Positions 59,175 to 62,789 of a DNA stretch of 64,000 bases are shown piece by piece; the first letter of the stretch is position 1; each line of letters starts with the position of its first letter. The DNA comes from Thermothielavioides terrestris NRRL 8126 (taxonomy: Eukaryota; Ascomycota; Sordariomycetes; Sordariales; Chaetomiaceae). The position numbers and the translations under genes are program-made. The DNA lies in NCBI RefSeq assembly GCF_000226115.1, contig NC_016460.1, forward strand, positions 1,550,001 to 1,614,000, given 5' to 3'. The notes beneath the pieces were generated by a model. That model did no database searches, had not been told where the DNA came from, and worked only from the letters and a program-made list of their open reading frames with translations.

Positions 59175-62100
59175 ATGGCCGAGTCTCCGTCCTTCATGAC
59201 CCTCCGGACACGGCGGCCCGCAAACGACGAGTGCAGCATGAGCAGCGCCGACTCTGCGGTATGTGAACTCGCAGTTGGTTGTCTCGGTCTCGCCAAGTCA
59301 ACAACGTCGTTCCGGCTGACCTCCTCCATTCTAGTACGGCTCGGGCACCGAGGGCTCTCCGTTGGCAACCCACGACATCAGTCGTGTGAGCTACCATGTG
59401 AAGAACATCGACAGCTTCGCCCAAGCTCTTCAGGAAGTGAGTCAGATCCTGTGTGCCCGCGGCGGTGGCAGCCTCCATGGATGTCGCTCCTAACGTGAGG
59501 TGCCTTGAAGTCCGCGAGCAGGGCGTTCCCGAACCGCGGCCGTGCAACCCAGAGGTACTCCAAGGTGCATGCTCTCATGCTCCACTGGGGTTCTGATGAC
59601 CTGTTTGTGCTGCCCGAGCTTGAGGACCTGGAGAAGTGCCTGCGTGAGCACTACAACTATGAGACCGACATCTTCTCCATCCCCTCCGAGAACTCCCATC
59701 TGGAGCTGATGCTCAAAATTGGCGACATGGTCAAGAAGCACGAGTCCGAGGACACCCTGCTAATAGTGTACTATGGCGGTCACGCCCGGATAGACGAGTC
59801 GCGTCAAAGCACCTGGTGCGCGTAAGTGTTGTGTGTCCGCGCCTCCCCCGTCGATACCGTCCCCTGACGCTCAGCAGGAACCGGCGTCCTGGGTCCCCGT
59901 GGCTCCAGTAGGTTCACCCCACCATCCCTCCTCCCCTTCCTATCTTCGCAACTCCCGGCGTAACCGTGTTCAACAGATGGTCAGCCATTCAAACTCTCCT
60001 CGAACGGTCCGTCTCGGACGTCTTGATTCTCCTCGACTGCTGCGCCGGGGCCGCAAGCGCCAGCTTCCCCACCGGCCAGAGCATCACCGAAACCATCTCT
60101 GCTTCCAGCTGGGATGCCATCGCCCCCGACCCGGGTAGATATTCCTTTACGAACGCCCTGATTGAAGTCCTCCTAGAGTGGCGCCAACGGACGTTCTCGG
60201 CCGCCATGCTACATGCCGAGGTCCTTGCTCGCCTGAAGCATCCGCGCCCAATCCTCATCAATGGGAAGCAATTTGAAGCGCGTTCGACCCCAGTCCACTT
60301 CATGATGACGTCGAACCACAAGGCTCCCAGCATCGAGATCTGCCGACTAGTCCCTCCCAACCGGCTGCCTCCATCACCCCCGAATGAGTTGGCCTTCTGG
60401 AACCGCCCGACTCTACCGAGGATGATCGAAGGGAGGAACCCCGCCGAGCCGTACCCTCGTGCTCCCGATTTCCGCATTCCCGCCGCCTCGGACCCCAACG
60501 AGGACGAGCCTCACGTGCTCATCTCCTTAGCCCTTGAGGATGACCAACGATTAGATCTGAATGACTGGGAAACTTGGCTGGCCGCGTTTCCCGCCATTGC
60601 AAAATACGTCAAGGTTCAAGGCGTTTTCAAGAGCCACTCGACTCTGCTCTTGTTATCACTGCCCGTGATGGTCTGGGACTTCCTGCCTGACGATCCCGCA
60701 TGCTCTTTTGTAGCCTTCATCCGGTCAAACAACCTCCTCCGACCTCAAACCTCGGGCTCGGAAGCGGCGGCAGACTCGCGCGTCCATGTCACCAGCGAAG
60801 GTCCCGTATCTACCCCGATGCGCGACGACGCCGAGTCATGCCTGTCGGGCACTACGTATGGACCGACAGAGAGTTTCAACCTGGCCAGACGGGGCATCGT
60901 TGGCCCCAACATCAGCCGAAACCCATCTACTGCTTCTGCGCCATACCGAGACCCGCCTGCGGACTACAGGTTGCCTCAACGGGCAGGAACATCGGGAGGA
61001 GGTTGGCCTGAATATGCCCCCGCGGACGTGCTCTCCCAGCCGGGACCGAGTGCAGGACTGAGAGTCCAGCCATCAATGGGCAGTCTTGGCGGGTCTCTCC
61101 GGAACGTGCCTTCCACGGCTTCTCTGGCCACGCTCGAGCGACGCCAACTCGGCCCGTTGGCTATGTCAGCTGCCGCCGGCCACGATTTGCCAGCGCCCGG
61201 TGAAGGGATAACAAGAACAATGATCCTCAACCAGTCGCGGAGCTCCAAGAAATCCGTCTTCTTGTCGGATCAGGACGTTCCCCAGGGCCAACAGATGGCT
61301 CCGCACGTCCTTCGACGCCTGGAGTATTACTTCCAGAAGGATCCGGACCCAAGCATCGGCGTGGTGGAACATCTCGCTTCGAATCTTGGTGTCGAGACGT
61401 CGGATATCCACGTAAGTCTGCGCGCAAAATACTGCATAGGAACGGCCCTTGCTGACGGGAACAGGTGTGGTTCCATCATCGTCGGGAGCAGGAGCGGATG
61501 ACATACAACCTGCAAAACCTCAAAATCGAGCACCACCACGGCCAAGCCCAGGATGGCGCCGTCCACATGATTCTCCCTGGTCATCTGAACAGGCTTCTCG
61601 AGATATATCCATCCAAGGGCGTCTTGCTCGTTGACCTGCGATCTTCGACAGACTTCGAGAGGTCGCACATCCACGACGCCATCAACCTCCGCGCCCCGGT
61701 GAGCTTCGTCGAGCATACCTCGCTGGAGATGATTGAAGACACCTTCATGGACGACCAAAGCCGGCGCAGCTTTAGCAAATGGTCTCAGTTCAAGTGCATC
61801 GTCTTCTACGACCGCGTCATCGAGTTCGACTGGGAGTGCCCCGTCGCTGAAGCCTTGTACACGAAGTTCAGGCGAAAGGGCTGGCAAGGCCAGTGCTTCA
61901 TTCTCAAGGGCCATTACCGGGAATTCTCGGCATCGTTCGACAAGCACATCAGCGGCGCGAAGATGACCGGTGAAGCCAAGGAGTATCTGGACAGTCTGCG
62001 ACAGCAATCCAGCCCAACGGAGGTAAGCTGATCAAAATCCCGTGGATCCTGCGCTACGATGGAGCCTCACACCATATTACACAGGGAGAGGCGCGTAGGC

Positions 62101-62789
62101 GAGACGAGGAGTACCGCGAATTCTTGAACCTATTTACACTTCAGCACCCTGTGCCGATAGTCGACCTCATCCCTGCCCGGAAGCTCGAGCGGTTGAGGGC
62201 AGTGGAACAGAACCAAAAGGAGCTCGAGGTCGAGTTCGAGACGCGCTTCCCAGCACTATACAAGAAGGCGCAAGCAATGCGCCCTGCTCCGGCCATGGAC
62301 GAACCGCCGAGTCCAGCGCACCCATCTCCCCCGCCCCCATTCTATAGAGATCTGCGGACGGGCCAGTCGTTCAAGGATGTCGACTGGGCAGGCGCTGGGA
62401 AAGGTGACGAGGACGATTTCACTGCCAGGAAGGCAGCCCTGGTTGAGCCGCTTGCGAGTGGGCTGGAGAAGATGCGCGATGCCAGCAATCTACAACGCGC
62501 AGATTCCACAACATCCTCCCGAGGCCACCATGAAGATTACCCGGAGAAATTCAGGAGAGACTTCTACGCTGATGATTACGAGCACGACTTCGACGAAATC
62601 GATCCCAAGAGCGAGGGCTTGAGGAACGATCCCGGATTCCAGAAGGCCGGAGCGCCGAGCCCTGCTGGAATTGAGCCCGGGACGGCTGTGAAGGCGCACG
62701 AGCGGGCGGGAGGTGAGGACACGTTGAAAAAGGGGTCAAAGAAGCGGCCACAACTTTGGGGTCGGCTAAGGAGCGGCGCCACAAAGTGA
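59175..62789 (+). CDS. Caspase-like domain fused to a rhodanese/MKP-CH2-like domain
   Basis: Seven exons: 59175-59258, 59335-59436, 59511-59821, 59878-59907, 59977-61411, 61465-62022 and 62085-62789, giving 1074 aa with every junction in phase. The caspase-like (clan CD) part spans about residues 78-250: strand HALMLHWGSDD, then LLIVYYGGHA (predicted catalytic His153), then VLILLDCCAGA (predicted nucleophile Cys198). Residues about 320-640 are mostly Pro/Ser/Arg-rich. The second domain, about 690-820, reads HLNRLLEIYPSKGVLLVDLRS, FERSHIHDAINLRAP and FKCIVFYDRVIEF. It is the rhodanese fold in the form seen in MAPK phosphatases; the usual Cys after the fourth strand is Asp, so it is probably non-catalytic. 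The C-terminal roughly 230 residues are charged. Exon 4 is only 30 bases. Similar fungal proteins are often named tyrosine phosphatase-like; the true role is unknown. Confidence 0.85.

Follow-up and report, generated by a model that had tools for sequence, protein, structure and literature searches.

A PAH7/MoHOX4-class homeobox gene of Thermothielavioides terrestris: a putative developmental cysteine protease whose homeodomain is degenerate and whose rhodanese is a pseudo-enzyme

The closest described proteins form the PAH7/MoHOX4/NCU00100 homeobox class. In the available parts of Coppin et al. 2012 (PMC3360767), PAH7 was given as the ortholog of MoHOX4 (MGG_06285), a non-canonical His was remarked in its homeodomain, and pah5 and pah7 were described as tightly linked. 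Class knockouts published in three fungi concern, according to the accessible text, perithecium pattern and conidium size (PMC3360767, PMC2779367, PMC8406175): deletion of Mohox4 gave small conidia (PMC2779367) and deletion of Cshox4 large ones (PMC8406175), and the Mohox4 deletion altered the expression of other transcription-factor genes (PMC3675110). A rhodanese domain was ascribed to the class, with no ortholog in Aspergillus flavus (PMC5666362, available part), and a homeobox protein with a rhodanese-like domain was reported from Ustilaginoidea (PMC6596325, likewise). An earlier note, made from the present DNA sequence alone, had proposed a caspase-like protease joined to a rhodanese domain, a pairing perhaps already known under phosphatase names. 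The homeobox-plus-rhodanese part was indeed in print (PMC5666362, PMC8406175, PMC6596325), whereas no mention of a caspase fold was found in the open-access literature searched: the term "caspase" does not occur in the main text of any of PMC3360767, PMC5666362, PMC2779367, PMC8406175 and PMC6596325, and searches combining caspase, rhodanese and homeobox returned no paper on a fungal protein by title. The note knew of no described function; the gene belongs to this class with published knockouts.

The window, i.e. the whole 64,000-nucleotide stretch that was analysed, lies on contig 4 of the six-contig, 36.9-Mb genome of Thermothielavioides terrestris NRRL 8126 (Sordariales). Judged by sequence comparison, its gene at 59175..62789 is the T. 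terrestris ortholog of PAH7 (Podospora) and MoHOX4 (Magnaporthe). Sequence matches included MGG_06285 (P0060) and proteins named pah7, and the homeobox class formed a single clade (support 100/100; 15 of 38 tree rows). Some 9 kb downstream, about 8 kb beyond the window end, there is a homeodomain-like coding stretch (L004:8098-9100; WFTNFRRRKW, with Asn51 retained on visual inspection), in agreement with the published pah5-pah7 linkage.

The single in-phase gene model of the earlier note was reproduced, including the numbering of His153 and Cys198: the reading phase is kept across all seven exons, and the introns are of the GT/AG type (Table 1). The rebuilt protein is matched over 92 % of its length by THITE_2118892 of the same strain (99 % identity); the public model (P0001) takes Met85 as its start and so misses part of the first caspase strand. 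Skipping of the 30-nt exon 59878-59907 would keep the frame; a model without it was ruled out by its SPxLQW residues, which were present in 114 of the 120 listed relatives, missing in four and read otherwise in two. By a loose pattern, a branch-like motif was found in five of the six introns (that of 62023-62084 far from the intron end), and none in intron 59908-59976. In intron 61412-61464, the branch-like CTGAC begins 13 nt upstream of the intron end. Because this intron interrupts the homeodomain, the domain requires the joining of the flanking exons.

Table 1. Features of the homeobox-class gene in the window (rows: 121-row protein alignment).
Feature	Position	Strand	Details
HOX4/PAH7-class gene	59175..62789	+	7 exons, 1074 aa
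Exons	59175-59258, 59335-59436, 59511-59821, 59878-59907, 59977-61411, 61465-62022, 62085-62789	+
Caspase-fold domain	59550..60355	+	exons 3-5
His153 codon (YYGGH), presumed catalytic	59781..59783	+	H in 120/121 rows, 1 gap; 58/58 in the outside family
Cys198 codon (second C of DCC), presumed catalytic	60041..60043	+	C in 121/121 rows
Conserved alpha/beta module after caspase fold, no Pfam name	60494..60715	+	48/74 columns ≥90 % conserved; strand-helix pattern in model
Variable linker, low model confidence	60716..61234	+	pLDDT mostly <50; mean majority fraction 0.32
Degenerate homeodomain, split by intron 61412-61464	61295..61497	+	PF00046, E 9.6e-10; 69/69 orthologs
Intron at caspase-rhodanese junction	61412..61464	+	GTAAGT..CTGAC..CAG, 53 nt
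Homeodomain position 51, His	61477-61479	+	N51 in 9/121 rows
MKP-type rhodanese domain	61564..61947	+	PF00581, E 5e-8; 69/69 orthologs; best PDB matches DUSP6/16/10
Positions aligned to DUSP6 Arg-Arg, here Glu-His	61711..61716	+	alignment; 121-row columns
Rhodanese catalytic position, Asp	61810-61812	+	D in 112/121 rows

The fusion itself was borne out by comparison, since homeodomain and rhodanese both matched in all of the orthologs scanned with Pfam in two parts (69 proteins, a diverse selection of the 120 listed). A two-gene reading, with a transcript ending between the domains, was ruled out, as the junction falls inside the homeodomain and both domains recur in these 69 proteins. Counter to the fusion, P0134 (427 aa) and P0130 (625 aa), both annotated gene models of Colletotrichum graminicola, stop before or within the homeodomain. 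Among the short class members listed (P0121-P0201; n=81; 402-637 aa), 78 matched the homeodomain profile and only two the rhodanese profile; most of these, from metagenome contigs, fit gene models halted at the intron.

The caspase fold with an intact His/Cys dyad, also claimed earlier, was supported by residue conservation, by predicted structures, which were those of orthologs and not that of the window protein, and by fold comparison, which ruled out chance caspase motifs. Both Cys residues of DCC are invariant in the 121 aligned rows, and Asp196 lies two residues upstream of Cys198. In the wider family outside the homeobox class, D-x-C was present in 58 of 58 proteins, the middle residue being C in 46, T in 10 and A in two. 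In the model of P0134, His140 lies two residues past strand 131-138 and Cys184-185 immediately past strand 177-183, so that the pair sits after adjacent core strands; model confidence is lower for the Cys-bearing stretch and the loop that follows (blocks 181-210 of an ortholog model, pLDDT 64-67). The full-length Foldseek list placed the unrelated PatB under 0.001 as well (7.8e-4), and homeodomains appeared only at ≥0.025. When the PDB was searched by sequence with the caspase part, no useful match emerged, metacaspase-4 being listed only at E 1.2. Of the two Pfam profiles proposed as a check, Rhodanese matched, and Peptidase_C14 gave no match in the window protein at E ≤ 10 and matched only five of the 69 orthologs; a match to this profile would support membership of the C14-like peptidases but does not define it. 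The pattern probably explains why such proteins are annotated as homeobox proteins (or, by name, as a "tyrosine phosphatase") and seldom as caspases.

The caspase fold is the most constrained part of the protein: in the unweighted 121-row alignment, conservation reaches ≥90 % in 149 of its 213 columns, but in only 12 of the 50 homeodomain columns and 44 of the 128 rhodanese columns. The alpha/beta module of about 74 aa comes close to it in conservation, and the VIA fold comparison, which barely covered the module, listed no match for it. By analogy with MALT1, which is controlled by its Ig3 domain, the module might control the protease. The linker that follows is probably disordered, going by the model.

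In the reading that we prefer, with a probability of about 0.55, the PAH7/MoHOX4 ortholog is a putative developmental cysteine protease aimed by its degenerate homeodomain and pseudo-enzyme rhodanese. The caspase-fold domain would be an active C14-like cysteine protease and, with an Asp two residues upstream of the Cys, would have a basic P1 preference, i.e. cleave after Arg or Lys as metacaspases and MALT1 do. The homeodomain would place it at a nuclear or chromatin partner and the rhodanese at a phosphoprotein or a component of a kinase pathway; by cutting a small number of nuclear or signalling substrates, the protease would tune fruiting-body position and spore size. The reading is supported by the fold comparison, the invariant His/Cys pair, the strong constraint on caspase fold and module, the Peptidase_C14 matches in 34 of 58 wider relatives (E ≤ 0.001, best 4.7e-18) and in a few orthologs, the general lack of Asn51 in the homeodomain and the knockout phenotypes. 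Counted against it were the missing Peptidase_C14 match in the window protein and most orthologs and the low pLDDT around the Cys, together with the rows that retain Asn51 and the expression changes in the Mohox4 deletion, both of which fit DNA binding. The knockouts in three fungi were interpreted as loss of a transcription factor in the available texts; if the caspase fold is active, these phenotypes report a protease, and the roles in fruiting bodies and spores may rest on proteolysis instead of, or besides, gene regulation. Filamentous fungi would then gain a caspase-fold regulator of normal development beyond metacaspases.

The homeodomain, which was absent from the earlier account, lies between caspase fold and rhodanese, giving three domains rather than two; its Pfam match and that of the rhodanese both exceed the cut-off. 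Asn51 of the recognition helix is the chief base contact of a homeodomain. Across the 121 rows, position 51 is H in 83 and N in nine; W48 is kept in 116 and R53 in 109. Because six of the nine Asn51 rows belong, as we take it from their names, to Podospora or close kin, DNA binding could persist there. A basic C-terminus was dropped as a conserved nuclear signal, W-x-R-L-R being present in just 53 of 117 long rows. These data bear on the usual view of a homeobox transcription factor, in which DNA is bound through the homeodomain, while the caspase fold serves for dimerisation or as a scaffold, with no need of proteolysis. We consider this unlikely: the homeodomain profile matches every scanned ortholog, W48 and R53 are well kept and the Mohox4 mutant shows transcription-factor expression changes in the available text (PMC3675110), but Asn51 is rare, the homeodomain is much less conserved than the caspase fold, and an invariant His/Cys pair is hard to square with a mere scaffold.

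The claim of an MKP-type rhodanese in which Asp stands in place of the catalytic Cys was upheld. A profile of ten orthologs run against solved structures found DUSP6 first (1.6e-8), then DUSP16 and DUSP10, and DUSP16 also appeared in the full-length Foldseek list; the catalytic position is D in 112 of the 121 rows, A in seven, S in one and a gap in one. The sole CX5R of the protein (CIVFYDR) falls in this domain; it was ruled out as a phosphatase loop, its Cys lying at the start of a strand in the model, five residues ahead of the Asp position. The earlier note had further proposed that the rhodanese tethers the protease to a MAP kinase and so links stress signalling to proteolysis or cell death. 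This was not borne out and we regard it as quite improbable. In its favour, the domain is nearest to MKP rhodaneses among solved structures and lacks the catalytic Cys. In DUSP6, an arginine pair serves MAPK docking; the columns aligned to it are basic in only seven and 27 of 121 rows, which weakens the docking idea, Pfam found no dual-specificity phosphatase domain in the window protein (E ≤ 10), and the phenotypes in the available literature are developmental, with no link to stress or cell death found there. Docking through other surfaces, as MKP-5 does, would be possible by analogy. Least probable of all is that the protein acts in cell death or self-defence, in the manner of the NLR and CHAT proteases, its homeodomain and rhodanese serving as decoys: relatives do bear differing tails, and activation of a gasdermin by a CHAT protease is described in a fungus (PMC12881547, available part), but the class is one clade in the 38-row tree with one member found in the T. 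terrestris genome rather than a variable repertoire, neither NACHT nor NB-ARC, as found in fungal NLRs, was detected (Pfam, E ≤ 10), and the mutant defects in print are of patterning and size.

Relatives of the putative protease extend well beyond the homeobox class. A caspase-plus-module query found 428 proteins at E ≤ 0.01, among the 120 listed some of 41-46 % identity, from what we take by name to be Leotiomycetes, lichen fungi and Fusarium; a search from one of these found 746 (120 listed). From 135 such proteins (P0202-P0336), the 58 of ≥540 aa were scanned, excluding class member P0227. Among the 25 of 80 Pfam families shown, Raptor_N was found in 22, C2 in 10, DUF3295 in five, RA and Zn_clus in two each and WD40 and TPR in one each, besides Peptidase_C14; C2H2 fingers were listed for P0288. 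Some relatives are unreviewed metagenome gene models, and odd tails may be artefacts. In P0312, P0319, P0323 and others (Fusarium and a relative), the caspase chassis is joined to a C2 domain, possibly a membrane- or calcium-linked branch.

The T. terrestris genome holds at least four further relatives. One (L017; G000:C1:330778-331963, minus) has a caspase-like part, the alpha/beta module and, by eye (Pfam under cut-off), C-terminal C2H2-type zinc fingers, so that the same genome has a second instance of this chassis coupled to a tail of DNA-binding type. In L018 (G000:C2:4128507-4129308, minus), the His position reads YYSGC, perhaps a dead protease; L016 (G000:C5:640733-642095) carries YYAGHA/YDSC and L019 (C4:4317747-4318522) YYHGHG/LDCC.

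Because the homeobox class is one clade, a single gain of the homeodomain-rhodanese tail on the stem of that clade is probable. More tentatively, and with some doubt, the HOX4/PAH7 protein may be one branch of an undescribed modular caspase family, in which an invariant caspase fold and alpha/beta control module are aimed by swappable tails (homeodomain-rhodanese, C2, Ras-association, zinc-finger, WD40 or TPR), a nuclear protease in this branch carrying out what has been ascribed to a homeobox transcription factor, perhaps by self-release or cleavage of developmental regulators. If true, this would point to a fungal family with exchangeable aiming domains.

Set beside known systems, the protein shares the caspase fold and D-x-C motif with MALT1 and the metacaspases, including the DSC of the T. 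terrestris metacaspase, but is only 14-16 % identical to MALT1 in the fold-comparison rows. The profile alignment to that metacaspase pairs the two His residues, through a weak link (probability 19.8, E 0.0012, 55 columns). Metazoan Asp-specific caspases carry a Q-A-C-type motif, in place of which every aligned row has D-C-C. The closest PDB relatives of the rhodanese are those of DUSP6/10/16, and an Asp stands at the Cys position in the DUSP6 alignment too; unlike MAPK phosphatases, the T. terrestris protein has kept neither the Arg pair nor a dual-specificity phosphatase domain. Fungal caspase-fold proteins with C2, RA, DUF3295 or Zn_clus tails have the same caspase-plus-module chassis, His and D-x-C, but no homeodomain or rhodanese (0 of 58 each, by profiles built from the homeobox class). 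The PAH7/MoHOX4/NCU00100 class, to which the gene is orthologous by sequence, is called a transcription factor in the available literature; to this, a caspase fold is now added.
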